Assembly: GCA_022508265.1 (NCBI GenBank)
Contig: JAFLVP010000002.1
Coordinates: forward strand, 32,540 to 96,539
DNA length: 64,000 nt
Reading direction: 5' to 3'
From: Clostridiales bacterium
Lineage (GTDB): Bacteria > Bacillota > Clostridia > Christensenellales > Borkfalkiaceae
In this document: positions 4,307 to 49,782 of the stretch, one piece after another
How the letters are laid out: the number at the start of each line of letters is the position of its first letter
Position numbering within the stretch: position 1 is the stretch's first letter
Position numbers and translations under genes: made by a program
Notes under the pieces: generated by a model
The model's input: only the letters and a program-made list of their open reading frames with translations
Database searches by the model: none
Told to the model about the DNA's origin: nothing

Positions 4307-4343
4307 AAATCATTTTATTATTAAATTGAAATTTATCTGTTAT

Positions 4344-4652
4344 TTATGGCGCGTAATCTATTGATATAAATTCAATCCTATCCCACATCTGCTTTAATGT
4401 AAATGTGCCTTTACGCCCCATATCGAATAATTTATATTTTTCATTAAATTTTTCAAGAAAGCCAACTCGTTCAGAATCTTTTGTCAATCTAATATCAATT
4501 CTAATCATAGAATTACCACTTGGAAAAACATCTATTATTCTTTCTATTGAGCAACATCTGTAATGGGCGTAATCTTTAATTTGAAATACCGCTTTAATTA
4601 TTTTCCCGTTATTTATTTCATCGATAAATTGCTGATAAGTTAATGTATTCAA
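4344..4652 (-). CDS. Hypothetical protein, 102 aa
   Basis: Small soluble protein that I do not recognise. It has alternating strands and helices, no signal peptide and no membrane segment. A Cys-Cys pair (YRCCSIERI) lies near residue 33. It follows the DUF5662 gene by 4 bases on the same strand, so the two are probably cotranscribed. Codon use resembles the neighbours but is slightly richer in AT, which may mark a recently acquired gene. No function can be proposed. Confidence 0.65.
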   Translation of the reverse strand: MNTLTYQQFIDEINNGKIIKAVFQIKDYAHYRCCSIERIIDVFPSGNSMIRIDIRLTKDSERVGFLEKFNEKYKLFDMGRKGTFTLKQMWDRIEFISIDYAP

Positions 4653-4656
4653 TAAA

Positions 4657-5199
4657 TTACTCCGCTAAATTACTGTTTTTGTGTTCTTTTACGAATTTTT
4701 TGAGTTCTTTTAAGGTGTGTTTTTCGCCTTTTTCTTTGAGCATTGTTAAGAAATAATGCAAGTCTTCGCAGGTTTTCGGGTTCATTCCCTCTTTGTCCGT
4801 ACTTCTTTCAAAGTATTCAAGCGGGTAAGCCTCGGTGTACTTGTCTTTTAAATAGACCTTGCTGGCGGCTATCCGGTCGCAGACCATTTCCGCAAGGTAT
4901 TTTGCGGGCATTTCCACGTAAACCCTTTTTCCGTGCAAATAGTCCACCCAATACTCGAAGTGGTGTTTGTTTCTGCCCTTGTGATGAAGCCAAGCTGCGG
5001 AGTATCCGAAAATTTCCCTCTCCTTTACCTGCGGGCTCTTATCGCCCTGATAGTATTTAGCCCCGGGACCGAATTCCGCACGGCTGAATTTTGACAGGTC
5101 GTGCGTCAAGCCCTGCCAAATAAGTCCGCATTTAAAGCACAGTTTTCTTACAAGCCGTCTGTGCTTTGTAACCGTTTTCAAGTGTTTAAAAAACGCCAT
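4657..5199 (-). CDS. DUF5662 family protein
   Basis: Protein of 180 residues matching the DUF5662 pattern: a basic N-terminal helix, then GLTHDLSKFSRAEF, AAWLHHKGRNKHHFEYW and a C-terminal segment ending in a Lys-rich helix. The many conserved His and Asp residues (THDLSK, HHKGRNKHH) resemble a metal-binding HD-like core, but no activity is established for the family. There is no signal peptide or membrane helix. It is followed after 4 bases by a 102-residue hypothetical gene. Such genes are common in gut Clostridia and also occur in phages; nothing else here is phage-like. Confidence 0.75.
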   Translation of the reverse strand: MAFFKHLKTVTKHRRLVRKLCFKCGLIWQGLTHDLSKFSRAEFGPGAKYYQGDKSPQVKEREIFGYSAAWLHHKGRNKHHFEYWVDYLHGKRVYVEMPAKYLAEMVCDRIAASKVYLKDKYTEAYPLEYFERSTDKEGMNPKTCEDLHYFLTMLKEKGEKHTLKELKKFVKEHKNSNLAE

Positions 5200-35709: not shown

Positions 35710-37617
35710 TTACTCCAATTCGAACGCACCCGTGTATAACTGATAATATTTGCCTTTTTCGGCAATAAGCTGTTCGTGGTTGCCTCTTTCTATGATTTCG
35801 CCGTGCTCTAAAACCATAATTGCGTGGCTGTTTCTGACTGTTGAAAGGCGGTGTGCAATTACGAATACCGTCCTGCCCTCCATGAGCTTATCCATACCCT
35901 CTTCGATGAGTTTTTCGGTGCGTGTATCTATGGACGAGGTAGCCTCGTCGAGAATGAGTACGGGGCACTCGGAGACCATTGCGCGGGCAATTGCAAGCAG
36001 CTGTCTTTGCCCCTGCGAGAGGTTGGCTCCGTCGCGCGTTAATTGGGTATTGTAGCCCTCGGGAAGGTGGGTTATGAAGAAGTGCGCATTGGCAAGTTTT
36101 GCCGCCTTTATGCACTCCTCGTCCGTGGCGCTCAATCTGCCGTAACGGATGTTGTCTATGACCGAGCCCGTGAACAGATGAGTGTCCTGCAAAACCACGC
36201 CGAGACTTCTTCTTAAATCGTCCTTTTTGATGCTCTTGATATCGAGTCCGTCGTAGGTTATCGTGCCCGACTGAATATCGTAAAATCTGTTTATAAGATT
36301 GGTTATCGTGGTCTTTCCCGCGCCCGTGGAGCCCACGAAAGCAATCTTCTGTCCGGGCTTTGCGTACAGCGTTATATTTTTGAGAATTACTTTCTCTTTA
36401 GTGTAGCCGAACACGACGTCGTTGAAGCGGATATCTCCCTTTAAAGGGATATATTCAAAGCTGTCGCCCACGGGCTTTTTCCAAGCCCACGCCCCCTCCT
36501 CGTGCTCGCCGTAGGTCAAGGTAATTTCGCCTCCCCTGTCCTCGGGCGAAGTGTCCACCATTTCGAAAATTCTCTCTGCGCCGGCAAGCGCCATAACTAT
36601 TGCGCTCAATTGTTGGGAAACCTGCATGACGGGCATATTGAACTGCCTCGAAGCCATCAAAAAGGCAATTATCATACCGACGACACCTTCGCCGAATACC
36701 GAGCAACAAATAGAGAGCAGTCCCGCCTCGCCGCCGAGAGCGATAGCCAAGACGCCCACGAGTGCAACCAATACGTACTGAATATAGCCGAGGTTGTTGT
36801 TTATGGGTCCCAAAATAAAGGCGTACTGGTTTGCCGTTCTGCCCGCCTCGTTGAGCTCGTCGTTGACGATTTTAAACTGACGGCGCGCCCTGTCCTCGTG
36901 ACAGAAAACTTTTATTACCTTCTGCCCTTCGGTCATCTCCTCCACGAAGCCGTTTAAATTTCCGAGTGCGCGCTGGTGCGTCAGATAGTATTTTGCCGAT
37001 TTTCCCGCAACGAATTTGGTGGTAAGGATTATTGCAGTCAGCACTGCGAGCACCACAAGCAGCAGAGTTACACTATAATATACCATAAACGCGAATACCG
37101 CAACGAGAGTTAAGCACGAGGATATGAGCTGCGGTATGGTCTGCGACAATAGCTGGCGCATCGTGTCCACGTCGTTGGTGTAAAGGCTCATCAAATCGCC
37201 GTGCGTGTGACCGTCGAAATACTGCAGGGGCAAGTTCTGCATTTTTGCAAACATTTCGTCGCGCATCTTTTTGAGCGTGTTCTGCGCTATGTACATCATT
37301 ATGAGGTTATACGCAAAGTCCGAAACAGAGCCTACGAGATAAATTATGGCTATTAAGATTATGTTGGGATAAATTACACCTGTTAAATCCGACTCGACGC
37401 CTTTTGCCGTAAGTTCGTTTATTATATTTTTAACGAAGTTGGTTGCCGAAATTTTGGTGACGGAAGAAAACAGGACGAATATTACCATGAATACCGTTAA
37501 AAGCTTGTTGCGCGAAAAGGCGTAAGCGAGCAGTCTTTTCAAGGTTTTCATTGGGTTTTTAGCCCGTTTACCGCCTGCACCTCTTGCGGGCATCGACATT
37601 CTACTCATTTTCTTCAC
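35710..37617 (-). CDS. Heterodimeric ABC exporter, subunit B
   Basis: Fused membrane and ATPase protein of the multidrug/lipid exporter type, 635 residues. Six membrane helices at about 35-330, then the ATPase with Walker A GSTGAGKTT, signature LSQGQRQLLAIARA, Walker B PVLILDEATSSID and the switch AHRLS. Its signature Gln replaces the second Gly (LSQGQ), which is common in many exporters. It overlaps the partner gene by 17 bases. Together with marR this forms a drug-resistance-like operon. The substrate is unknown. An Arg/Lys-rich N-terminal tail precedes the first helix. Confidence 0.93.
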   Translation of the reverse strand: MKKMSRMSMPARGAGGKRAKNPMKTLKRLLAYAFSRNKLLTVFMVIFVLFSSVTKISATNFVKNIINELTAKGVESDLTGVIYPNIILIAIIYLVGSVSDFAYNLIMMYIAQNTLKKMRDEMFAKMQNLPLQYFDGHTHGDLMSLYTNDVDTMRQLLSQTIPQLISSCLTLVAVFAFMVYYSVTLLLVVLAVLTAIILTTKFVAGKSAKYYLTHQRALGNLNGFVEEMTEGQKVIKVFCHEDRARRQFKIVNDELNEAGRTANQYAFILGPINNNLGYIQYVLVALVGVLAIALGGEAGLLSICCSVFGEGVVGMIIAFLMASRQFNMPVMQVSQQLSAIVMALAGAERIFEMVDTSPEDRGGEITLTYGEHEEGAWAWKKPVGDSFEYIPLKGDIRFNDVVFGYTKEKVILKNITLYAKPGQKIAFVGSTGAGKTTITNLINRFYDIQSGTITYDGLDIKSIKKDDLRRSLGVVLQDTHLFTGSVIDNIRYGRLSATDEECIKAAKLANAHFFITHLPEGYNTQLTRDGANLSQGQRQLLAIARAMVSECPVLILDEATSSIDTRTEKLIEEGMDKLMEGRTVFVIAHRLSTVRNSHAIMVLEHGEIIERGNHEQLIAEKGKYYQLYTGAFELE

Positions 37618-39376
37618 CCCCCTTAATCTGCGATTCGTAAACTTCCCTGTAAATTGCGTTGGACTTGACGAGCTCTGCGTGCGCGCCTATTCCCGATATT
37701 TTGCCTTCGTCCAAAACTATAATTCGGTCCGCATCCTGAACGGAGGCGATACGCTGGGCGATAATTATTTTTGTTACTTCGGGTGCGTAAATTTTGAGCG
37801 ACTCGCGAATATTTGCGTCAGTCTTTGTGTCGACTGCCGAGGTTGAGTCGTCGAAAATGATAACTTTCGGCTTTTTAAGAAGGGCGCGGGCTATGCACAG
37901 CCTCTGCTTCTGTCCGCCCGAGACGTTTACGCCGCCCTGACCCAAGTCGTAATTGTATCCACCCGGTAGGCGCTCTATAAACTCGTCGGCGCAAGCCTGC
38001 TTTGCGGCGAGCTTAATTTCCTCGTCTGTGGCGTGTTCGTCGCCCCAACGCAGATTTTCGGCAACCGTACCCGAAAAGAGCACGTTTTTCTGCAAGACCA
38101 TTGCAACCTTTGAGCGCAGAGCGTCCAAGCTGTAATTTCGGACGTCCACTCCGCCGACCTCTACGCTTCCCGATGATACGTCGTAGAGCCTCGGAATTAA
38201 GGACACGAGCGAGGTCTTGCCCGAACCCGTTGCGCCTATTATTCCTATCGTTTCGCCCGAGGCTATTCGGATATTTATATCTTTAAGTACCTGCAGGTCT
38301 GCCTTCTGCGAATATGCAAAGCTGACGTTTTTAAAGGAAATACTGCCGTCTTTTACTTCGTCTACGGGCTGTTCGGGTCTGGGAAGGGTGGTTTTTTCGT
38401 TTAAAACTTCGCAAATTCTGTCCATGCTGCCCCTTGAAAGCGAGATGAAGTTCAGGCACATAGCAACCGACATAACGCCCGAAAGTATCTGCGCGGAGTA
38501 CTGGATAAGCGTCTGAATATCGGTAGCCTTTACGTTGCCGACTATATTCCCGAGCACCATATTCGAGCCGACGGTTAAATTTATTACGTTTACGATGAAG
38601 AGCGTCAAGGTTACGCAGGGCATCATTACGGTCAGAATGCGCTCCGCCTTGACGGCGTACTCGTAGACCTCGCCCGAGGCTTTTTTCATCTTGGATATTT
38701 CCCTGTCCTCGCGCACGTAGGACTTGACTACGCGGATTGCCGTCAGATCCTCCTGCACGACAGAGTTGAGCTTGTCGTACTTTTTAAACATCGTTCTGAA
38801 ATAGGGCACGACCTTTATCATACAGATTGAAACGACAATTCCGAGAAGTATCGCGGCTCCCGCAAAGATTGCCGCCATTTTTGGCTCTATGAGGATTGTC
38901 ATAACAATCGAAGTTATAAAAAGTACGGGCGCGCGCACCAACATTCGTATTGACATCTGGTAGGCGTTTTGAACGTTGGCAACGTCGGTGGTTATTCGCG
39001 TTATCAAGCTCGAAGTCGAAAAGTTGTCAATGTTTGCGAACGAATAGGTCTGAAGTCTGTCGTACATATCCTCCCTTAAATTGTGCGCAAAGCCGCAGCT
39101 TGCCTTCGCCGCAAGCTTTCCGCCCCATACGCCGCAGATTAGTGCAAAAGTTGCACACACTATCATTATGACCGCACGGATGATTATGTAGGTTAAGTCC
39201 CAATCGGTCGCGGATACCTGATTGACGTAATTCAGATGTACGTTGAACTGCCCCAATATGTCTGCCATAAAATATGGAATTAAAATTTCCATAACGGCTT
39301 CGCCAACCATTACAATGGGGCAGAGTATAGAGGGCTTTTTATACTCTCTCACGCTCTTTAAAAGTGTCTTTATCAT
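37601..39376 (-). CDS. Heterodimeric ABC exporter, subunit A
   Basis: Partner of the downstream exporter gene, 591 residues with six membrane helices then an ATPase domain: Walker A GATGSGKTS, signature VSGGQKQRLCIARA, Walker B KVIIFDDSTSAVD. The catalytic Glu after Walker B is Asp (FDDS) and the switch His is replaced (AQRIAS), so this half carries the degenerate site, as in LmrCD/TM287-288 pairs. It starts 2 bases after marR. Such pairs export drugs, peptides or lipids. Confidence 0.93.
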   Translation of the reverse strand: MIKTLLKSVREYKKPSILCPIVMVGEAVMEILIPYFMADILGQFNVHLNYVNQVSATDWDLTYIIIRAVIMIVCATFALICGVWGGKLAAKASCGFAHNLREDMYDRLQTYSFANIDNFSTSSLITRITTDVANVQNAYQMSIRMLVRAPVLFITSIVMTILIEPKMAAIFAGAAILLGIVVSICMIKVVPYFRTMFKKYDKLNSVVQEDLTAIRVVKSYVREDREISKMKKASGEVYEYAVKAERILTVMMPCVTLTLFIVNVINLTVGSNMVLGNIVGNVKATDIQTLIQYSAQILSGVMSVAMCLNFISLSRGSMDRICEVLNEKTTLPRPEQPVDEVKDGSISFKNVSFAYSQKADLQVLKDINIRIASGETIGIIGATGSGKTSLVSLIPRLYDVSSGSVEVGGVDVRNYSLDALRSKVAMVLQKNVLFSGTVAENLRWGDEHATDEEIKLAAKQACADEFIERLPGGYNYDLGQGGVNVSGGQKQRLCIARALLKKPKVIIFDDSTSAVDTKTDANIRESLKIYAPEVTKIIIAQRIASVQDADRIIVLDEGKISGIGAHAELVKSNAIYREVYESQIKGGEENE

Positions 39377-39378
39377 AC

Positions 39379-39810
39379 TTACTCCGATATTTTAGCGATA
39401 ATTTTTTCAAGCAATTTCTGAAGTTCGTCCTGCTCATTGTCGGAAAGCGCAGACTGAACGGTTTCGTCGCACTTTTCCATAAAGAGTTTGTTGTCTTTGC
39501 AAAGCTTTCTGCCCTTTTCCGTGAGTTCGAGATACTTCGTCCGCGCGTCTCCGTCCCGAAAGGTCCTGATTAAATATCCCTCCCTTTCAAGCGATTTCAA
39601 AAGCGCAGATACCGACGAGGGACGCAGGTTCAGCTCCCTTTCGATATCCCGCTGGCAGACCTCGTTTTTGACACGCTCGTTTTTGATTAAATATATGAGC
39701 GTTTGAAGCTTTACGGGCGTTATTCCCTGCTCGGCAAGCTCCCTGTTGATTTCCCTGTACATCTGCCTTTGCAGATAGCAGATTTTTCCGAAAAGTCTTT
39801 TGTTCTCCAA
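39379..39810 (-). CDS. MarR-family transcriptional regulator
   Basis: Winged-helix repressor of about 143 residues. The recognition helix region reads QRDIERELNLRPSSVSALLKSLEREGYL, followed by the wing FRDGDARTKYLELTEKG; long helices at both ends form the dimer. The start at TTG 39810 is preferred because GGGGG lies 5 bases upstream; an alternative TTG at 39825 would add five residues. The promoter at 39863-39891 is followed by a 20-base perfect palindrome, probably its own operator, so it should control itself and the exporter. The ligand is unknown. Confidence 0.88.
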   Translation of the reverse strand: MENKRLFGKICYLQRQMYREINRELAEQGITPVKLQTLIYLIKNERVKNEVCQRDIERELNLRPSSVSALLKSLEREGYLIRTFRDGDARTKYLELTEKGRKLCKDNKLFMEKCDETVQSALSDNEQDELQKLLEKIIAKISE

Positions 39811-39828
39811 TTTTACCCCCAACAAATA

Positions 39829-39996: not shown

Positions 39997-40025
39997 TTGC
40001 TTTTACACTATATATAAATTATAAT
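39997..40025 (+). promoter_or_regulatory. Sigma-A promoter of lipoprotein gene 1
   Basis: TTGCTT, 17-base spacer, TATAAT. The leader of about 54 bases ends in GGAAAGGAGACC before the ATG at 40086. Confidence 0.65.
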
Positions 40026-40085
40026 AAAATTAAGCTATTATCGGCTACATAAAATTATGCACATTTTGGAAAGGAGACCAAATAA

Positions 40086-43010
40086 ATGAAAGGCAAATTA
40101 AAAACGTTTATAACTTCATTTTTAGCCGCTTTATTTATGGCTACCCTTATTGTTCCGATTGCTGCCTGCACGGAGGACAACGGCAACACCGACCCGGTTG
40201 TGACCGTAGTTTCCATGGGCAACAAAGGGCTTGAGGGCGTTACCGTAAGGGCAACCAACGGCGCAAACACCGTTGCAGGAAAGACCGACAAGAACGGCAA
40301 AACTTCTCTTGCAATCGATAAGTCGCTTACCTATCAGGTAACTTTTGAAGATCTGCCCAAGGGCTATTATGCCGACCCTTCAACAAGCTACACGATTAAG
40401 GCTAATTCTACGGAGGAGACAAAGTTCTATCTTCCTTCAAAGGTAATCGAGGGCGAAAGCGTCGACCCCAAATACGTATATAGGACGGGCGACGTTATGT
40501 ATGATTTCTCGTTTACTACGACGACAAATTCTTCAAGACCTGCTACGGTTGTCACTCTTTCCGAAGAGCTTAAGACAAAGAAAGCAGTTTTAATTAACTT
40601 CTGGGGTTCACGCTGCCCTAACTGCGAGATAGAATTCCCTGCGATAGAAAAGACCTATAAGATGTTTGAAGAAGATTTTTCGGTATTGGCTCTCGACCCC
40701 CCCGGAGCTTACGGCGATACCGATATAACAATAATGAGCACCTTACGTCAGTGGGGATTAGACCTCTCGTTCTACTACGGAATGGATGCGGCGGGCGAGG
40801 CAGGCATCTATAAAAACTTCTATGCTCCCGTTCAAAGCGGAGGAAGTTTCACTCTTCCCATCTCGGCTATAATCGACAGATACGGCGTTGTCTGCGAGAT
40901 TATAGTCGGTTCCGAGTCGGATGAAGAAATTTGGAAAGAGTCGATTGCTCACTACGTTTCCGACGACTACGTACCCGATATAAAAGAAGGTCAGACCTCG
41001 GATGACGTTGAAAACTTCGTGCCCGATAAGCCCGCAGATTTCCAAGCGAAGATGTCCGACCCCGTCGATATTGACAGAGCGATAAACAAGACGGGAACGG
41101 ATATACTGTTCTACGCAGACGACGGAGAATATTCATGGCCTTGGGCGCTTTCTTCGGACGGCAAATCCATCGTTCCTCTCGGTTCGGGACACGGCCTCTC
41201 CTATTCGATAATTTACGCCGATATAACTATTCCCGAGGGCAAGGCTCTGCTCGTAGACTATAAGGTTTCTACCTATGAATATTACGACCTGTTTGAGATA
41301 GTAGTTGACAACAACGATTTGGGAAGAGTTTCCTTCACCGATTCGGGCAACAAGGACTGGGCTACGGCTTTGGCGTATATCCCCCTTGAAGCGGGCGAAC
41401 ATCAGATTGCTTTCGTATATTATAAAGGTACACAAAAAGGACAGTACGAGGATACCGTTTACCTGAATAACCTCCGCTTTGTGGATATTTCGAGCGAGCA
41501 AATCCCCTCGATGGACGTCTCATATTACGCGGCACGCAGCTTCGACTCAAGAAACAGCATTTACAGAATTTACGAGGATGTTTATTTAGACAATACGGAC
41601 GGCTACTATCACGTCAGAGGGCGCAAAAGCGGCGGCACGGATCCCTACCTCCTCCTTGATATGACCCATATGATACCTTACACGCGCGGCGCTTCGCTCT
41701 ATTCGCAGTTCATAAACGAAAAGAGCTGCACGTTCGGCGGTAAGAACTATTACAACGAACTTATGTCCTATTCATACGTTGCCGCAAACAGTGCAGTAGA
41801 GGGCGCAGTGCCCGTAACCAAGGAGCTTCACGATATCCTGATTGAACTATGCAAGCATGACGCCGGTGCGGAAGCATATGCGGAAAATCCCAACCTTTGG
41901 CTTGAGTTCTGCATATTCTATATGCACTACGGCAAGGGAAGCGCGATGGACGACCCCGCAAAGGGCTATGCATACTTCTCGGCATACGAGGCAAAGGTTA
42001 CCGACGAGTACGATACCGCGACTGCGATGGAGCAGATCAACACGATATACAACGCTTACGACGAAATTGCCAACAACCCCGACGCTGACGTCGCTGCATT
42101 ACAGGCACTGATAAAGTTCACACAGGACGAATACGAAGCTAATCTTGCAACGTACAACTCCGTAGACTTCGATACGGTTATAGTGCCTCGCGGCAAGGTT
42201 GTTAAATTTACTGCTCCCTCTGCCGGTGTATATCACTTCTACTCGGTAGGTCGCGAAGATAATCCCGAATACATTTGCCAGGCTGAGTTATTTACTTCCG
42301 ACCTTAAACTTCACACGACGCTTGCCAAACCCGTTGCAGTCCACGACAACGACACACTGTTCAGGGACGGAAGCCCTACGCAGTTCCACCTCTATCATTA
42401 TCTTAAAGAAGGCGAGTCGTGCTATCTGAACTTAATGTTCTACAGCTCCGAAACTCTTGGCACAATGTACTATGCGGTAAACAAGGTTTCGGATACGGAG
42501 TATAAATCTCTTAAAACGGTAACTGCGGGCTTCCTTACCACAAGCCTTGAACCCGGTGCTATGAATAAGATTTACCGCCCGTTATTCACCAAAGTTACGT
42601 TTAACTCCGAAGACAGCAAATATTATGCTTCAAACGGCAGCAATATTTATGTAGACTTTACGGGAGTTACGAGATTCTCCACCTCGCACACACTTGAACA
42701 GGTTATAAAGGCGGCAGCTTCGGGTCATCCCCTTAAATCGGGCAACATTGACGTAACTTTCGATTTGCGTGGCGTAACGGTAACCGTCGGCGAAGAAACT
42801 CTTGTCGGTCAGGATTATACTCAAAAGATCCAAGAATATCTCAAGAATGCTACGGCAAATCCGGACGACCCCGAATACGGACTTGTAGAGGCCAAGAAGG
42901 AATTGAGGGATATACTCCTCCTGTTCATACACAAGTACGATGAAATAATCGATGATAACGAGTGGCTGACGTTCTGCTACTTCTACGAATATTTCGGAGC
43001 AAATTATTAA
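40086..43010 (+). CDS. Large surface lipoprotein with thioredoxin-like domain
   Basis: 974 residues. The signal peptide ends at lipobox Cys28 (PIAAC). Residues 35-115 are an Ig-like carboxypeptidase-regulatory/Cna-B-type module (GVTVRATNG, TDKNGKTSL, LPKGYYA). Residues 150-305 are a TlpA/redoxin domain with the active site FWGSRCPNC (Cys177, Cys180) and the cis-Pro segment FTLPISAI. The rest is beta-rich and contains two copies of an unnamed module, each ending in a helix plus an aromatic/Cys motif (LWLEFCIFYMHYG near 630 and EWLTFCYFYEYFG at the C-terminus). It is exported, lipid-anchored and possibly redox active. Lipoprotein gene 2 follows after a hairpin. I know no characterised relative. 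Confidence 0.85.
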   Translation: MKGKLKTFITSFLAALFMATLIVPIAACTEDNGNTDPVVTVVSMGNKGLEGVTVRATNGANTVAGKTDKNGKTSLAIDKSLTYQVTFEDLPKGYYADPSTSYTIKANSTEETKFYLPSKVIEGESVDPKYVYRTGDVMYDFSFTTTTNSSRPATVVTLSEELKTKKAVLINFWGSRCPNCEIEFPAIEKTYKMFEEDFSVLALDPPGAYGDTDITIMSTLRQWGLDLSFYYGMDAAGEAGIYKNFYAPVQSGGSFTLPISAIIDRYGVVCEIIVGSESDEEIWKESIAHYVSDDYVPDIKEGQTSDDVENFVPDKPADFQAKMSDPVDIDRAINKTGTDILFYADDGEYSWPWALSSDGKSIVPLGSGHGLSYSIIYADITIPEGKALLVDYKVSTYEYYDLFEIVVDNNDLGRVSFTDSGNKDWATALAYIPLEAGEHQIAFVYYKGTQKGQYEDTVYLNNLRFVDISSEQIPSMDVSYYAARSFDSRNSIYRIYEDVYLDNTDGYYHVRGRKSGGTDPYLLLDMTHMIPYTRGASLYSQFINEKSCTFGGKNYYNELMSYSYVAANSAVEGAVPVTKELHDILIELCKHDAGAEAYAENPNLWLEFCIFYMHYGKGSAMDDPAKGYAYFSAYEAKVTDEYDTATAMEQINTIYNAYDEIANNPDADVAALQALIKFTQDEYEANLATYNSVDFDTVIVPRGKVVKFTAPSAGVYHFYSVGREDNPEYICQAELFTSDLKLHTTLAKPVAVHDNDTLFRDGSPTQFHLYHYLKEGESCYLNLMFYSSETLGTMYYAVNKVSDTEYKSLKTVTAGFLTTSLEPGAMNKIYRPLFTKVTFNSEDSKYYASNGSNIYVDFTGVTRFSTSHTLEQVIKAAASGHPLKSGNIDVTFDLRGVTVTVGEETLVGQDYTQKIQEYLKNATANPDDPEYGLVEAKKELRDILLLFIHKYDEIIDDNEWLTFCYFYEYFGANY

Positions 43011-43016
43011 AAACCG

Positions 43017-43044
43017 TTTATCGCGGCTATCAAGCCGCGATAAA
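43017..43044 (+). terminator. Hairpin between lipoprotein genes 1 and 2
   Basis: TTTATCGCGGC, six-base loop, GCCGCGATAAA, without a strong T-run. It may partly terminate or stabilise the first message, lowering expression of the second gene, which has no promoter of its own that I can see. Confidence 0.6.
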
Positions 43045-43078
43045 TACTTAAAAGACAGTTTATAAAAAAGGAGAAATT

Positions 43079-45139
43079 ATGAAGAATTTTTTCAAAAGGT
43101 TTATTACCTGTGCGTTGGCAGCTTGTCTGATTGCTGCCACAATGCTTGCAGGCGCCTGCACACCTGACAACGACAACGGCAAGGGCGAAGTCCATACCGA
43201 CCCCACTAAATACGGATATACTATAACCGTTCTCTATCCCGACGGCACGCCCGTAAAGGGTTCGGACGGCCCCTCCATCAAAGCGCAGGTCAGCGTTGAG
43301 CTTATGAATGGTCCAGACGACGCCATAGCCGGAGCTCGCTCGGTTGTCAATGACTACGGCAAGGCTACCATAAATTACAGGGTGTCGGGCAAGTTCCTTA
43401 TCGACGTTTATAATTGCCCTAACGGCTTTGAGTACGCCGATAAAGTTTATACGGTTGAGGGCAGAGGCGATTATACCGTAAAGCTTTCCCCTAAACCCGT
43501 GAGCTACACTATTAACCTTAAGCTCCCCGACGATACCCCCGCTATCGGCGTAACTGTCAATATTAAAAAGGACAGTGCTTTAGTTAAATCGGCAACGACA
43601 AACGCGAACGGAACTGCCGTATTGGAAAACGTCACTGCGGATACGTACGATTTAGAGCTTTTAAACCTGCCCGAAAACGTTTCGTATCTGCCTGTTCAGG
43701 TAACGGCAAAGCAACCTGTTTTGACCATAGAGCTTATTTCTTTAAAAGAGTTAAAACTTGACGAAGTAATGTCTGCGGAAAAGCTTGACGAGTGGGATAG
43801 GTTGGCCAATTCCTACTCAGACGAAGCACCCGTAACCCGATTTGACCGCACCGCCGACTGCTATGATTTTACAACCGATTTTATTCCCGAAGGCAAAAAG
43901 ATTTACTATTACTTTACGGCTGACAAAGAGGGTACCTATAACTTTATTTCCAGAGGTCAATATTATACCGTGGAATTCTTCGGTAATAGTCTTGGTAATG
44001 AAGCACTGTTGACTACCAATAGTACTCACGAAAGCTCTAACACCTGCGAGATGGTAGAGCTGCCGCTCAAAGAGGGAGAAAGATATTACTTCTCCTATTC
44101 GATTCCCGCGCGTTCAAACGATCCTTCGGCAGATGACCCTGACGAGCACCCTCTTTCGGGAACGCGTGAATTCATGATTGCAAAACCCGTTGCGGGCACG
44201 AGACGACACGAAGTAACCGAGCCCGGCAATTATGACATCACGTTTGAAACGGATACGGCATTACTCATATTCATTACTCCAATGTCTGCCACTCCTGAAA
44301 GACCTTCGCCTACGGACGGCGGTATATTTGAAATCTGCTCACATACAAGCGAGTACGACATAGAGATTATACATTATGCACGCTTGGCAGACAACTCGGA
44401 AATCGAAGGCTCTGACGACGACGGCGGCGAGGGTAAGAACTTTAAATATACTCTCGAAGTACCTCCCTCTTACACCGGCAATTACTATTACTTTAGGATA
44501 AAAATAAAGTCAAAGATCGGCGGTGGCGAGGTTGAATATCCTACGCAGGTTCCCATTTCCATTACCCGCATCGGCAACGCAGAGGAGAATTTCAGTCCTG
44601 TTGAAAACCAAGTTGCTACTGCTACGGAAAAATATGCCGAGCAGAGCGGAGAATTCCACTTCCTTATAGGCGACAACAATTCTATCAGTGAAAGCGATTT
44701 TACAATCATTGAAATGAACGGCGGATATTACGTAAATATTGACGGCACGGAACGCGAGCTTGTTGTTGCAATAAAGAAGAATTTAAAAGGACTTCCCTAC
44801 TCCTACGCTACGATAGAATATATGGGTGCAGGTTCGGTAGAGCCCGGTGGCTCGAACGGCGACGAAATGCCGAGTGCTCCCTCCGAGACAAGGCAGAACA
44901 GTTACCTTACACTCTACACCGACCCCTCAAAGGGCGAAGATAGGAATAACCCCAGACTCAACTATACGCCTTTTATCGAACAATACGCCACCCTTTGCAA
45001 CAGCGACGGTGTGTATAAGCTTAACTCAGAGCTAAAAGCGTTCATTGAAAGATATTATGCAAGTCATGCTCAAGACTTTATCTTCAGTCTTAATCTCGAA
45101 GAGTGCTGCTGGTTAATATCCTGTGGTTATTACGCTTAA
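43079..45139 (+). CDS. Large surface lipoprotein with repeated Ig-like modules
   Basis: 686 residues. Lipobox Cys27 (MLAGAC). Two Cna-B-like modules follow: residues 40-145 (VLYPDGTPVKG, then CPNGFEYADKVYTV) and 146-225 (LKLPDDTPAIGVTVNI, then LPENVSYLP). The central part is beta-rich. The C-terminal 150 residues resemble the repeated module of lipoprotein 1: an NGGYYVNIDG strand, then LKAFIERYYASH and ECCWLISCGYY. There is no thioredoxin motif. AAAGGAG precedes the ATG. Probably cotranscribed with gene 1. Function unknown; adhesion, sensing or partner binding are possible. Confidence 0.82.
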   Translation: MKNFFKRFITCALAACLIAATMLAGACTPDNDNGKGEVHTDPTKYGYTITVLYPDGTPVKGSDGPSIKAQVSVELMNGPDDAIAGARSVVNDYGKATINYRVSGKFLIDVYNCPNGFEYADKVYTVEGRGDYTVKLSPKPVSYTINLKLPDDTPAIGVTVNIKKDSALVKSATTNANGTAVLENVTADTYDLELLNLPENVSYLPVQVTAKQPVLTIELISLKELKLDEVMSAEKLDEWDRLANSYSDEAPVTRFDRTADCYDFTTDFIPEGKKIYYYFTADKEGTYNFISRGQYYTVEFFGNSLGNEALLTTNSTHESSNTCEMVELPLKEGERYYFSYSIPARSNDPSADDPDEHPLSGTREFMIAKPVAGTRRHEVTEPGNYDITFETDTALLIFITPMSATPERPSPTDGGIFEICSHTSEYDIEIIHYARLADNSEIEGSDDDGGEGKNFKYTLEVPPSYTGNYYYFRIKIKSKIGGGEVEYPTQVPISITRIGNAEENFSPVENQVATATEKYAEQSGEFHFLIGDNNSISESDFTIIEMNGGYYVNIDGTERELVVAIKKNLKGLPYSYATIEYMGAGSVEPGGSNGDEMPSAPSETRQNSYLTLYTDPSKGEDRNNPRLNYTPFIEQYATLCNSDGVYKLNSELKAFIERYYASHAQDFIFSLNLEECCWLISCGYYA

Positions 45140-45153
45140 AATTTCAAAATCAC

Positions 45154-45190
45154 TCCTCCTTCTGCAATTATGCGGAAGGAGGATTTTTTT
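45154..45190 (+). terminator. Terminator of lipoprotein genes 1-2
   Basis: TCCTCCTTC, 12-base loop, GAAGGAGGA, then TTTTTTT, shortly after the stop codon at 45139. Confidence 0.85.
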
Positions 45191-45301
45191 ATCGGTTTGC
45201 AGTACGTGATTAAAAGTTACGCCGTACACAAGTTTTAAGACCTGACATATATTATTCAATAAAATGAATAAAAGCCTGAATTTTATAAAAAAATTATTTT
45301 T

Positions 45302-45343
45302 ATATGCAAATTATTTGCATATTTTGGAATTATTTGCTAAAAT
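45302..45343 (+). promoter_or_regulatory. Promoter and palindromic operator of lipoprotein gene 3
   Basis: TTGCAT (45315-45320), 17-base spacer, TAAAAT (45338-45343). A palindrome ATGCAAAT-T-ATTTGCAT (core 45304-45320, 21 bases when extended) overlaps the -35 box. The half TATATGCAAAT recurs inside the promoter at 49525-49554. Both could be sites for one regulator. Confidence 0.6.
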
Positions 45344-45374
45344 AATGAAAAATTAAATTTTAAAGGAGTTTAAA

Positions 45375-46700
45375 ATGAAAAAGCACATCAAATTTTTATT
45401 AACTATTATCCTTGCTCTGTGCATGGTTTTCGGCTTGGGTGCTACAGTTGCTTGCCAACCCAACAACAGCGGCGACAACAAAAACACCTTTACGATTACC
45501 GTAAAAAACGAAGACGGCACCGACGCAGCAGGAGCTTGGGTTCAGTATTGCAGTGACGGCGCAGGCGCTCAATGCCATACCACACAGACAGATAGCAAAG
45601 GTAAGGTTACTGTAGATATATCTACGGAAGAATGGCAAACTTCCGAAACCATGCACGTTCTGCTTTTTAATATTCCCGCCGGCTACAGCGTGTATGACGA
45701 GGACGGTAATGCATGCAATTACAATGCAGATGATGACGAGTATGAGATTTTTATCGACCATCACGAAGTAAAGAGCGTAACGCTTACGATTAAACAAGAC
45801 CCCACTTTCATTACTGAAAGCTACGAATACGAAGAAAGCTTTTTAGGCGGCGAATCAAAGAAATATTTTACCGTTATCCGCAACGCCTCTGAAGCAGTAT
45901 TCGAAGCAGATATTCAGGACGGTGAATTCGAATTGTCCGTCGTCGTAAATTCCAACGCACCTATAACCGAAACATTGAGTTCCTCCAAGAAATCAGTGGT
46001 TTTGGATTTAGGCGAGGCAAGCTTTTTCGGCAACAACATTTCGTTCACTCTGAAACCCACGACTAATGCGGCGGCTACTATTAAATTTGCAGTTTGCCCC
46101 GTGTTACAGCTTGGAGATACAGTCAATATCTATGGCACCGACTTATACAAGGTATATTTTAACCTTCCCAACGCAAATACGGAGCTTGCGTTTGAAATGC
46201 CCGGCGAAGATCCCTTTGGCGGTTTCCCCATAACCGTTAAAATCGGCAGCCAGACGGTCACTTGGTCAAATACAAATGACATTGCACCTGTCAGCACTAC
46301 CGAAACGGGTTACGTACCCTTTACTTTTACGTTCGCTGACGCCGACACAGCAAATTTATACCTGACTATTAAGGACGCAAACGCTCCCTCCACGGACGGC
46401 GACGTCATAGTACTTGGCGAAACAATTGAAATAGAGTTGCCCAACATGTATGACGGTAAAGAGTTTAAGTTTACTGCCGACGAAACAGAAACTTATATTA
46501 TTACGATTACCGGCGGTACTGATGCAAAAGTTTCCTATACAGATAACATCAGCACTTGGTCTGAACCGTACTATGCTTCCGAGAGTAACGGCGTAATTGA
46601 AATAGAGCTTGTAGCCGGTGTTGAATATACCATAACTTTCGGTACTGATAATGAAAGCGGCGATTCCTATTCGGTTGTCGTTAGCAAAAAAGCAAAATAA
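45375..46700 (+). CDS. Surface lipoprotein with N-terminal Ig-like module
   Basis: 441 residues. Lipobox Cys27 (LGATVAC). Residues 35-140 are an Ig-like module related to those of lipoproteins 1 and 2 (TVKNEDGTDAAGAWVQY, IPAGYSVYDEDG). It is followed by three beta-rich segments of about 90 residues resembling pre-peptidase or CARDB-like sandwiches (for example IELPNMYDGKEFKFTADETET in two parts). There is no catalytic motif. Acidic, low in Cys after the lipobox. AAAGGAG precedes the ATG and the gene has its own promoter with a palindrome. Function unknown. Confidence 0.82.
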   Translation: MKKHIKFLLTIILALCMVFGLGATVACQPNNSGDNKNTFTITVKNEDGTDAAGAWVQYCSDGAGAQCHTTQTDSKGKVTVDISTEEWQTSETMHVLLFNIPAGYSVYDEDGNACNYNADDDEYEIFIDHHEVKSVTLTIKQDPTFITESYEYEESFLGGESKKYFTVIRNASEAVFEADIQDGEFELSVVVNSNAPITETLSSSKKSVVLDLGEASFFGNNISFTLKPTTNAAATIKFAVCPVLQLGDTVNIYGTDLYKVYFNLPNANTELAFEMPGEDPFGGFPITVKIGSQTVTWSNTNDIAPVSTTETGYVPFTFTFADADTANLYLTIKDANAPSTDGDVIVLGETIEIELPNMYDGKEFKFTADETETYIITITGGTDAKVSYTDNISTWSEPYYASESNGVIEIELVAGVEYTITFGTDNESGDSYSVVVSKKAK

Positions 46701-46705
46701 TAATT

Positions 46706-46735
46706 ATCTCCCGCAAAATTGCGGGAGATTTTTTT
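46706..46735 (+). terminator. Terminator of lipoprotein gene 3
   Basis: ATCTCCCGC, AAAATT, GCGGGAGAT, then TTTTTT. Confidence 0.85.
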
Positions 46736-46748
46736 GCTTAAATTAAAT

Positions 46749-46779
46749 ACCCCGTGCCAAGCACGGGGTTATTTATTTT
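46749..46779 (+). terminator. Second terminator hairpin after lipoprotein gene 3
   Basis: ACCCCGTGC, CAA, GCACGGGGT, then a T-rich tail; a backup to the one 15 bases earlier. The following 90 bases up to 46870 hold no gene or clear signal. Confidence 0.6.
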
Positions 46780-46869
46780 ATTGATAACATCGCAGTTTGT
46801 TCATCGGCAAAGCCTTTTTGCTCCTCACATTCTTCGCTATGAAAGCAGGCTATACAAGGATTATATTTA

Positions 46870-46895
46870 AAGCCGCCGATTTATCGGCGGCTTTG
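46870..46895 (-). terminator. Terminator of the redox operon
   Basis: AAAGCCGCCGA, TTTA, TCGGCGGCTTT, directly past the stop of the Fe-S/thioredoxin gene on the minus strand. Confidence 0.75.
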
Positions 46896-46900
46896 GTTAT

Positions 46901-48634
46901 TTAAGAGTTTTTAGCCTCTAAGAATGCTTTTTCCAAAATGTCATAGGTCATAGAACCGGTCCAGCTGTAAGTAAACACTCCACTTGCATTTATTATTGCC
47001 GTTACAGGGTAGGCATCCTTACCTCCGAATGCCTCGTATGCCGTAAGTGTCTGCCCGTTGTATTCGATTACTTTTGCATCCTGTGCGAAGATTATTTCGA
47101 AAGTCGACCAATCCTCGGTACGTTTCGGACTGCTGTTTATGAAGTTCTGAACATTATGTATTATATTTACCGAGTGAATTGCGACTACCTCTACCTCATC
47201 GCCATACTCTTTCTTTAACTGGTTAAAATGCGGAAGTTCTTTAATGCAAGGGTCACAAGTTGTTCCCCAGAAGTTGAGTACTACTACTTTGCCCTCTGTA
47301 AGGCTGTCTTCAAGCGAATACAGTTTTTCGCTGTTTAGCCCGTTGCCGTCGTATATTTCAAGCTTTAAGCCTTCGATAACTTCTGCGGGCAATTCATTTC
47401 CAACGCCTAAACTATCTACTTTATTTTCGGGAACAAAGAAATTGTAGAATACTAATACAAACGCAAGCAGTAATCCCGCAAGCGACCAGGCAACTATTTC
47501 AAGTATCTTGTTGCGCTTTGCTAAATTTACGGGCTTGCTCTTTTTTTCCTTCTTTACTTCTTCTTTGACTTTGACGTCCGCAGTAGCTACGACTTCCTCC
47601 CTTGCGATTGCGGGAGCTGCAACTGCCTCGGATGTGTTTACGTTTACCGCCACAACCTCCATAGGCTTTATTTGCTCTTGCGGTTGTACCGTCGTGCCTG
47701 CGTCGAGAACAGATGCAAGCGAGGGAACTGCTTCGGGAATATCCGTTTGATTCTCGTGTACGAATATCTGCGAGCCCTTCCAACTGATTGCCTTCGTGGG
47801 GCATACGGAGATGCACTCTCCGCAGTTTATGCACTCGTGGTCGCCGACGTGGCGAATATCCATCTTACAGTGGGATACGCACAGTCCGCACTCGGTACAC
47901 TTATCTTTATCGAGTCTAACACCCAAAAGCGCAAATTTGTTAAAGAAACCGTATATAGCGCCGAGCGGGCAGATAAATCTGCAAAAGAATCTGTATATGA
48001 ATATGCACAGCACGATTACCGCTACGAGGACTGAAAACTTCCAGGTAAATATACTGCCGAGCTGGGGAAGATAATTTTCGTTGTTAGGATTGGATAAAAG
48101 ACCAATTCCCCCCTCGAAAGTTCCCACAGGACATATGTATTTACAGAAAGTCGGCGAACTGATAAATATCGGAATTACTATTACCAGCGCCAACAAAATT
48201 ACGTACTTCGTATATGAGAAAACCCGGGTGTAGCTGTTCTTTTTCAGCTTGGGCGTCTTTATCTTGTACAGCAGCTCCTGAAGGAGTCCTGCGGGGCACA
48301 AAAAGCCGCAAATCGTTCTGCCGAGTATTATTCCGAATAGCACCAAAATGCCGATTACGTAGTACGGGGTGCGTGTATCGGAGGCCTCTAACGCGTTCTG
48401 CAATGCACCTAACGGGCACGCGCCTATCGCGCCGGGGCAGGAATAGCAGTTCATGCCGGGAACACACAGATTTTTCGAAGAACCGACGTTAGTAGCAGTC
48501 GAATAAATTCTTCCGCTCACAAAACCTTTTATATTCGCATTGTACAGAAGCGCAGAGTAAATTTGAATTATTCGGCGCCGCGTCGGCACGTGGTTTTTAA
48601 ACCAATTACCAATTTTAGAGAAAAATGCTTTCAT
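46901..48634 (-). CDS. NapH-like membrane Fe-S protein fused to a TlpA-type thioredoxin domain
   Basis: 577 residues from the ATG at 48634. Residues 55-230 are a polyferredoxin membrane region of the NapH/NosR type, with CGFLCPAG (109-113), CKYICPVG (164-168) and CRFICPLG (218-222). Two 4Fe-4S motifs follow (Cys246-249-252-256 and Cys268-271-274-278), presumably cytoplasmic. A Val/Ala/Glu/Lys-rich linker (295-370) leads to a further membrane helix (378-400) and then a TlpA-like domain with FWGTTCDPC (Cys460, Cys463), presumably outside. The fusion suggests electron flow from a cytoplasmic donor through Fe-S centres to extracytoplasmic thiols. It begins 2 bases after the upstream CxxC-tail gene, with which it must be cotranscribed. 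An earlier ATG at 48664 lies within that gene. Confidence 0.88.
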   Translation of the reverse strand: MKAFFSKIGNWFKNHVPTRRRIIQIYSALLYNANIKGFVSGRIYSTATNVGSSKNLCVPGMNCYSCPGAIGACPLGALQNALEASDTRTPYYVIGILVLFGIILGRTICGFLCPAGLLQELLYKIKTPKLKKNSYTRVFSYTKYVILLALVIVIPIFISSPTFCKYICPVGTFEGGIGLLSNPNNENYLPQLGSIFTWKFSVLVAVIVLCIFIYRFFCRFICPLGAIYGFFNKFALLGVRLDKDKCTECGLCVSHCKMDIRHVGDHECINCGECISVCPTKAISWKGSQIFVHENQTDIPEAVPSLASVLDAGTTVQPQEQIKPMEVVAVNVNTSEAVAAPAIAREEVVATADVKVKEEVKKEKKSKPVNLAKRNKILEIVAWSLAGLLLAFVLVFYNFFVPENKVDSLGVGNELPAEVIEGLKLEIYDGNGLNSEKLYSLEDSLTEGKVVVLNFWGTTCDPCIKELPHFNQLKKEYGDEVEVVAIHSVNIIHNVQNFINSSPKRTEDWSTFEIIFAQDAKVIEYNGQTLTAYEAFGGKDAYPVTAIINASGVFTYSWTGSMTYDILEKAFLEAKNS

Positions 48635-48636
48635 AA

Positions 48637-49485
48637 TTATCCGAGTCCTATACACTCCGTGCAAATTTCTTTTGCCTTAAGCCATACGGCATAAATTCCA
48701 CCGTTGAACACGCCTAAAATTATAAAAGTTACGGCAAGCACTCCGAGAGCGGATACAACGCATATCCGTATTATATTCGAAGTCTTTTTATTCGTAAGTA
48801 CCGCTGCTTTTGCGCGAACTTTGTCGGTAATTTTGTCTACGGGATTGCGCATATCAGTACGCACGGGCGCGCCCTTGCCGTTTGCAATAAGGCTTTTTAC
48901 TGCGTTAAGTTCCTTGTTGATACTTAATTTGGTAATTACCACGGCAATTACGGCACAAGCAAGTGACGCAAGCACAAACGGTCCAACGAATTTGAACATG
49001 TTGAACATTGCATCGTGAGCAGGTATACCTTTAAAATTGCTTTTATTAAAGAGATATATGCAACTTATAATTATGCATACAATCAATATTACAGTCAGCG
49101 CAATAGCCGTTATAAAACGCGTAAGGCGCTCCTTTTTCACTGTTTTTAAATTGGCGTCGTAACCCTCTCCACTGCCTTCGGGAATTTTAGAGGTAAGCCG
49201 TTTGAGCGCCAATGGATTGTTGCTTAAAGCCGATTTTTTGGGCTGGACGGGATAGACAAGGGAAAGCACAAACCCCGCAATTATAGCGGCAATCCATATA
49301 AAAAACGGCGCACATATGTATAAAAAACGGGTGCCGATTGTTTCGGGCGTGTATCCGCCCTGTACGTATCCCGCATCGGCAAAAATTCCGCACGCCTGAA
49401 CAATGAAAAGTATGCCCACAGTCAATGTCAATAAGCTTAAGAATATTCCGAAATATAGCCGTACAAGCTTTGCTTTGTTTTGCAC
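48637..49485 (-). CDS. Five-helix membrane protein with CD1871A-like CxxC tail
   Basis: 282 residues from a GTG at 49485 preceded by AAAGGAGGAG. Longer readings start upstream of that ribosome site and overlap the promoter, so they are excluded. Membrane helices lie at about 9-32, 57-78, 127-149, 165-187 and 245-262. The last helix and tail (KAKEICTECIGLG) match the small CD1871A-family CXXC proteins, which end in a closely similar ICxECIGxG motif. Here that motif is fused to a larger protein. The Fe-S/thioredoxin gene follows after 2 bases, so the tail cysteines may serve in thiol or electron transfer. The function of CD1871A proteins is not established. Confidence 0.75.
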   Translation of the reverse strand: MQNKAKLVRLYFGIFLSLLTLTVGILFIVQACGIFADAGYVQGGYTPETIGTRFLYICAPFFIWIAAIIAGFVLSLVYPVQPKKSALSNNPLALKRLTSKIPEGSGEGYDANLKTVKKERLTRFITAIALTVILIVCIIISCIYLFNKSNFKGIPAHDAMFNMFKFVGPFVLASLACAVIAVVITKLSINKELNAVKSLIANGKGAPVRTDMRNPVDKITDKVRAKAAVLTNKKTSNIIRICVVSALGVLAVTFIILGVFNGGIYAVWLKAKEICTECIGLG

Positions 49486-49524: not shown

Positions 49525-49554
49525 ATTATATATGCAAATATACATTAAAGTCAA
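49525..49554 (-). promoter_or_regulatory. Sigma-A promoter of the redox operon
   Basis: Minus-strand TTGACT, 18-base spacer, TATAAT. The plus-strand sequence TATATGCAAAT (49529-49539), half of the palindrome at 45304, lies in the spacer. Confidence 0.65.
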
Positions 49555-49707: not shown

Positions 49708-49782
49708 GGCCCTGTGGTCAAGCGGTTAAGACGGAGCCCTCTCAAGGCTCAATCCCGGGTTCGATTCCCGGCAGGGTCACCA
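49708..49782 (+). tRNA. tRNA-Glu (anticodon CUC)
   Basis: Full cloverleaf with encoded CCA: acceptor GGCCCTG / CAGGGTC, anticodon stem GAGCC/GGCTC with loop CTCTCAA (anticodon CTC), and T-arm CCGGG-TTCGATT-CCCGG. The overall sequence is that of bacterial tRNA-Glu. It is a single gene with its own promoter and a terminator whose stem begins at the last base of CCA. The CUC species reads GAG codons only, so a UUC isoacceptor must exist elsewhere. Confidence 0.97.

Follow-up and report, generated by a model that had tools for sequence, protein, structure and literature searches.

Reducing power is well known to reach thiols outside the cytoplasmic membrane by thiol exchange through CcdA or DsbD, which are fed by cytosolic thioredoxin. 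Surface TlpA lipoproteins that operate with CcdA and MsrAB2 have been described in Streptococcus pneumoniae (PMC3914529), and modular flavinylated systems are known in which NapH-like proteins are accompanied by FMN domains (PMC8238504). A preprint of November 2025 presents as novel an unfused three-protein operon of gut Clostridia, for a 4Fe-4S protein, a TlpA protein and a CxxC protein, and associates it with immunotherapy side effects (PMC12637426). The present analysis concerns a locus of five genes in a stretch of 64,000 nucleotides (nt) from a Clostridiales bacterium (contig JAFLVP010000002.1), the whole of which is referred to as the window; coordinates are positions in it, and strands are given relative to it. 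The locus is real and conserved. In it, a NapH-like Fe-S donor is fused to TlpA and joined by a CD1871A tail protein of enlarged size and by lipoproteins as dedicated partners. Judging from the sequences, it would most likely serve to reduce cysteine pairs at the cell surface with electrons from ferredoxin.

Three lipoprotein genes on the + strand converge on a two-gene operon on the - strand. The former are LipA (40086..43010, 974 amino acids (aa), lipobox C28), LipB (43079..45139, 686 aa, lipobox C27) and LipC (45375..46700, 441 aa, lipobox C27), each with a Shine-Dalgarno-like site. The latter comprises TM5-CxxC (48637..49485, 282 aa) and the NapH-TlpA fusion (46901..48634, 577 aa). All five genes were found at the positions and in the layout claimed in the initial annotation. 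The start of TM5-CxxC was likewise kept at GTG 49485, which follows a clear Shine-Dalgarno site (AAAAGGAGGAGAACG); the fusion starts at ATG 48634, TTG 48664 being the mechanical start. Only 2 nt separate the TAA of TM5-CxxC from the ATG of the fusion, and the pair is a tight operon.

The fusion was expected to be a NapH-like ferredoxin protein with an outside TlpA domain, and this was borne out by Pfam matches to three Fer4_5 domains and one Fer4 domain, after which come a hydrophobic, transmembrane (TM) segment and a domain that resembles ResA and TlpA. The TlpA/ResA-like domains of the locus show a Redoxin fold and an active site of the W-x-x-x-C-x-x-C type on the outer face; that of the fusion has its cysteine pair at C460/C463. 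The fusion scored 76.3 bits against the NapH/MauN model TIGR02163, which is under the curated 213 bits, and no Pfam match to an FMN-binding domain was observed in the five locus proteins, to which that search was confined. In an alignment with Escherichia coli NapH, both inner CxxxCP motifs (C109, C113, C218 and C222) and the eight ferredoxin cysteines are kept. Six outer-face cysteines of the fusion (C57, C63, C66, C73, C164 and C168) are absent from the E. coli protein. At least 547 matches to the fusion were found, and the best 80 loci were kept as the source of all counts out of 80. In an alignment of 78 fusions (that of the window and those of 77 of the 80 loci), five of the six outer cysteines were present in all 78 and C168 in 77; all six were present in 35 of 35 relatives from a sample of the class Clostridia, two of these relatives being fusions. 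Such a set of cysteines would be enough to bind two clusters, an inner and an outer one, and to leave a CxxxC pair. At locus L154, the TlpA-like domain of the fusion is present as a tandem pair, of which the first copy has lost its CxxC cysteines.

TM5-CxxC has five hydrophobic segments, with 3/1/7/3/7/2 lysine and arginine residues across its successive loops. This positive-inside pattern places the N-terminus inside and the C-terminus, with its CxxC tail, outside. The only residues invariant in 69 aligned rows (K270, A271, C275, C278, G280 and G282) are those of the CD1871A tail (KA..IC.ECIGLG), which sits on the C-terminal helix of the predicted model (mean pLDDT 84.8). Against the CD1871A model NF040920 (cut-off 32), the protein scored 29.6 bits on a 353-aa open reading frame and 34.3 bits in the genome search. 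The CD1871A open frame spans 276-362 aa in the three members found of the window's family and 40-133 aa outside that family. At some core loci that lack LipA and HpL, the lipoprotein family introduced below (L094 and L115), a protease-like lipoprotein, presumably resembling HtrA, is encoded directly upstream of TM5-CxxC.

The CD1871A tail protein was found in 38 of the 243 Clostridia-class genomes sampled for it and for CcdA. The flanks were read for 39 of the 40 matches in that sample, the window's own being left out, and a NapH-like gene was labelled in 36 and a thioredoxin-like gene in 24. It is because these genes flank CD1871A matches that we regard the known unfused operon as the parent kind. 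In a genome of another family (G134), an HpL gene, a CxxC gene (46 aa), a NapH gene and a TlpA gene (173 aa, N-terminal TM segment) follow one another on one strand; the NapH and TlpA frames overlap where the one ends and the other starts, and the TlpA TM segment resembles the linker TM segment of the fusion. This arrangement may represent an intermediate towards the fusion. Other genes adjoin unfused operons as well, namely one for a lipoprotein that looks rhodanese-like, as we take it (L204 of G286, 4323-5093), and, as read from sequence, two-component regulator genes (L200, L209 and L218).

The lipoproteins showed the expected signals. LipA, which had been claimed to hold a FWGSRCPNC thioredoxin domain, matched Redoxin PF08534 (E 2e-8), the motif being C177/C180. 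A prealbumin-like N-terminal region precedes its ResA/TlpA-like domain (~131-293) and a beta sandwich (322-470), and the C-terminal half contains a near-invariant C609. LipB has prealbumin-like regions; as observed in a near-identical relative at L086, these fit the HpL profile but lack the cysteine pair. LipC is the window's member of HpL, a family of lipoproteins with a conserved hairpin bearing a cysteine pair; its hairpin domain lies at ~45474-45791, with the pair at C59/C67 (VQYCSDGAGAQC). HpL faces the fusion in 48 of the 80 loci, and is likely a redox client of the relay proposed below. Its cysteines might instead bind a metal or another ligand, or act as a sensor, with the relay serving other surface proteins. 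In favour of this, the stretch between the two cysteines is of very variable length, which would fit a ligand loop no less than a disulfide, and the core is present without the counted pair in 14 of 56 loci. Within the class, however, the domain is rare (9 of 391), and its seven strongest matches adjoin the core or LipA, which points to a dedicated partner, so that a ligand or sensor role seems unlikely. Outside the genus, a 449-aa frame in G046 (contig C20, ~1396-2250) gave a match to the HpL profile (1.1e-10) plus a weak TlpA match, and may combine hairpin and TlpA in one protein. Thioredoxin lipoproteins with InlB-type B repeats replace LipA in the partner block at L132 (13216-18070) and L150 (9691-10632).

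The initial annotation had staked its proposal on these genes being neighbours in related genomes, and the arrangement was found to be conserved. Each of the 80 loci has a TM5-CxxC homologue beside the fusion. Among 37 genomes of the genus, the window's own included, the fusion (match E below 1e-70) and TM5-CxxC occur in the identical 21, and LipA in 23, the two extra copies lying at contig ends. All parts, i.e. TM5-CxxC, fusion, LipA, HpL and a desulfidase considered below, are present at locus L101 of Pumilibacter muris CLA-AA-M08. The persistence of the arrangement in genomes of the same genus and in loci from named records indicates more than chance. It could nevertheless reflect shared descent only, with unrelated surface lipoproteins kept beside the core within one lineage; most loci come from one family, and the co-occurrence counts ignore shared descent, which also tells against the functional reading. 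This explanation is distinctly unlikely in our judgement, given that pairings of the lipoproteins with the core or among themselves recur in two other families, in other gene orders (G134 and G381), and that LipA and HpL stay together on a contig separate from the fusion in G012, G018 and G019.

As to the donor, no match to the UbiA family was found in any of the 37 genus genomes, whereas all 14 control genomes gave one. A quinol donor is thus unlikely, and cytosolic ferredoxin becomes the natural one. The route from ferredoxin to outside thiols put forward earlier is supported in that it fits the cysteine map, the topology and this lack of UbiA matches. The opposite, oxidative direction, in which the outside CxxC and TlpA domains would form disulfides in surface lipoproteins and electrons would pass inward through the Fe-S protein, appears quite improbable. 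Thioredoxin-fold proteins can work in either direction, the HpL hairpin would in that case be a structural disulfide, and MauM/MauN-type ferredoxin proteins presumably occur near disulfide-forming proteins. Without a UbiA match in the genus, however, the electrons would have to be taken up by ferredoxin, which has a far lower potential than thiols, and the TlpA, ResA and Etrx relatives of LipA are, as we take it, mostly reductants.

CcdA/DsbD (PF02683) gave no match among the five locus proteins and none in the 37 genus genomes, including 16 without the fusion; it was found in 4 of 24 other genomes and in 126 of the 243 class-sample genomes. It was rarer in carriers of CD1871A (12/38) than in the others (114/205; lists compared by hand; Fisher p 0.008, ignoring phylogeny), and the two are partly complementary while able to coexist. 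The suggestion that the Fe-S protein may replace CcdA is weakly supported, as PF02683 is absent from the 16 fusion-free genomes of the genus as well. A related possibility is that the Fe-S protein stands in CcdA's place in cytochrome c or envelope maturation of the ResA or StoA kind, these being the proteins nearest to the TlpA domains by sequence and fold. We consider this very unlikely: no cytochrome or spore gene turned up in the loci read, although no search was aimed at either, and the lack of a quinone prenyltransferase match in the genus makes a cytochrome chain unlikely.

A repair pathway, in which the TlpA proteins would serve a methionine sulfoxide reductase outside the cell, like the CcdA-Etrx-MsrAB2 system of pneumococci, is suggested by the good structural match of Etrx2 to the LipA domain and, in G191, by a lipoprotein (L210, 1435-2616) that is secreted, carries motifs of both MsrA and MsrB and adjoins an unfused CxxC/TlpA locus. 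Such motifs were present in only that one of the 39 class stretches, and MsrA (PF01625), found in 6 of the 24 other genomes and in 12 of the 14 controls, was found in 0 of the 37 genus genomes, which points away from an Msr role. The repair pathway is therefore extremely unlikely, and MsrA is ruled out as the client in the genus unless an unrelated reductase is present.

The final substrate may be indicated by neighbouring genes. In many relatives, a protein of 420-450 aa (PF03313, 1.4e-62) is encoded divergently from TM5-CxxC, and in the Protein Data Bank it matches at E <= 0.001 only the L-cysteine desulfidases 9he0 (3.9e-33) and 9fsl (1.3e-32). By eye, with a chain offset of 2, it keeps all five of five CyuA residues when compared with 9he0, i.e. 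the Cys/Glu dyad and the three cluster cysteines, as described for MmCyuA (PMC12647591). Within the flanks fetched, the desulfidase was seen in 23 of the 80 loci and OppB in 17. In the genus, it occurs in 16 of the 21 genomes with the fusion (adjacent in 11) vs 2 of the 16 others (Fisher p 0.0002, ignoring phylogeny). The recurrence of genes for a cysteine desulfidase and an oligopeptide importer next to the core in relatives leads us to favour cystine or disulfide-bonded peptides as the final substrate. E. coli is known to ferment cysteine via a desulfidase (PMC9040844).

The pathway that we propose is a quinone-free reductive relay from ferredoxin to surface disulfides via a membrane Fe-S protein, to which we would give about an even chance. 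Reduced cytosolic ferredoxin would act as donor to the 2[4Fe-4S] domain of the fusion; the electrons would cross the membrane from the inner cluster (C109/C113/C218/C222) to the outer set (C57/C63/C66/C73 plus C164/C168), proceed to the outward CxxC tail of TM5-CxxC and/or the fused TlpA domain (C460/C463), and then reach C177/C180 of the LipA TlpA domain, whereupon LipA would reduce the hairpin pair of LipC/HpL at the cell surface. The relay is built on the gene set, its linkage, the topology signals, the conserved cysteines and a genus without UbiA or CcdA matches; from these we infer the cluster ligation, the donor, the order and direction of transfer, the role of HpL as client and the final substrate. 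In a bolder and rather unlikely extension, extracellular disulfides (cystine, disulfide peptides and perhaps mucin) would be an outlet for ferredoxin electrons through the quinone-free wire, with HpL as surface disulfide reductase, and the freed cysteine would be imported and split by the desulfidase to pyruvate, ammonia and sulfide, i.e. a disulfide respiration coupled to cysteine fermentation in small-genome gut Clostridia.

Besides shared descent, several observations weigh against the relay. The ferredoxin-domain cysteines were present in 69-75 of the 78 fusions, probably an effect of trimming (19/19 in another alignment). Four fusions (L046, L047, L049 and L050, from G006, G017, G014 and G028, respectively) have two tandem TlpA-like domains, the first without CxxC cysteines. 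The TM5-CxxC model gave no significant Foldseek match, so no known structure backs its role. The core occurs without LipA or a counted HpL pair in 14 of the 56 loci that form the well-flanked subset used for that count, although one of them, L150, does possess the domain, in a form whose motif is a variant one. The desulfidase of the window's own genome is situated on contig C25, away from the locus.

Consensus scans detected a promoter-like TTGACT-18-TATAAT (11/12) upstream of TM5-CxxC (49525..49554, - strand) and a promoter-like TTTACA-17-TAAAAT (10/12) upstream of LipA (40002..40030, + strand). Terminator-like hairpins were detected after LipB (45154..45183, + strand; 13 pairs and a T run) and between the convergent units (46706..46729, both strands). 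The excess of such calls over shuffled sequences was modest (27 vs 18.6 and 12 vs 10.0). A tRNA-Glu (CTC) lies just upstream of the operon on the opposite strand (49708-49782). An ABC-exporter pair, adjoined by a MarR-like regulator, precedes LipA (35710-39825), and copies 71-76 % identical to it are situated by LipA in G004 and G036 (L034 and L065).

If the relay is true, a ferredoxin-fed Fe-S wire would be a different coupling from the thioredoxin-fed one: its donor would have a much lower potential, and it would operate in organisms in which no quinone genes are detected. A function would thereby be suggested for an operon present, as counted by its tail protein, in 38 of 243 sampled Clostridia-class genomes, with HpL as a concrete client candidate and P. 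muris CLA-AA-M08 as a named strain that carries the set. If the cysteine link is right as well, surface disulfide reduction would be tied to gut sulfide production.

Among solved structures, the C-terminal domain of Mycobacterium tuberculosis DipZ (2hyx) is the top Foldseek match of LipA (E 3.3e-10). In both, a beta sandwich comes after a thioredoxin domain, but identity is 15 % and the root-mean-square deviation over both domains is 16.8 (TMt 0.34). DipZ presumably pairs its thioredoxin domain with a carbohydrate-binding-like module, and we take it to carry its own CcdA-like membrane part. The CcdA-Etrx-MsrAB2 pathway (PMC3914529) shares with the window's set a membrane electron donor, surface TlpA lipoproteins and a surface client, but the donor here is an Fe-S protein rather than CcdA, and neither CcdA nor MsrA was found in the 37 genus genomes. 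NapH/MauN and the flavinylated systems (PMC8238504) have in common with the fusion the inner CxxxCP motifs, the eight ferredoxin cysteines and a NapH-like part with an outside redox domain. The fusion differs in its 23 % identity to E. coli NapH and its six extra outer cysteines; it has TlpA where the flavinylated systems have an FMN-binding domain, in a genus without a UbiA match.

The initial annotation knew of no description of this combination. That does not hold for the core, since the unfused operon of the preprint (PMC12637426) shares with it the NapH-like Fe-S membrane protein, the TlpA protein and the CxxC tail protein. For a set that also includes LipA, HpL and a tail protein of five helices, no description was found in open-licence papers; nor was the term 'CD1871A' found there. 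Unlike that operon, the window has TlpA fused to the Fe-S protein, a five-TM tail protein, and LipA and HpL facing the operon. The core is a variant of a little-known operon already in print, and the lipoprotein partners appear to be undescribed; new here are the six outer-face cysteines, the HpL family facing the fusion and a linkage that recurs in two other families.

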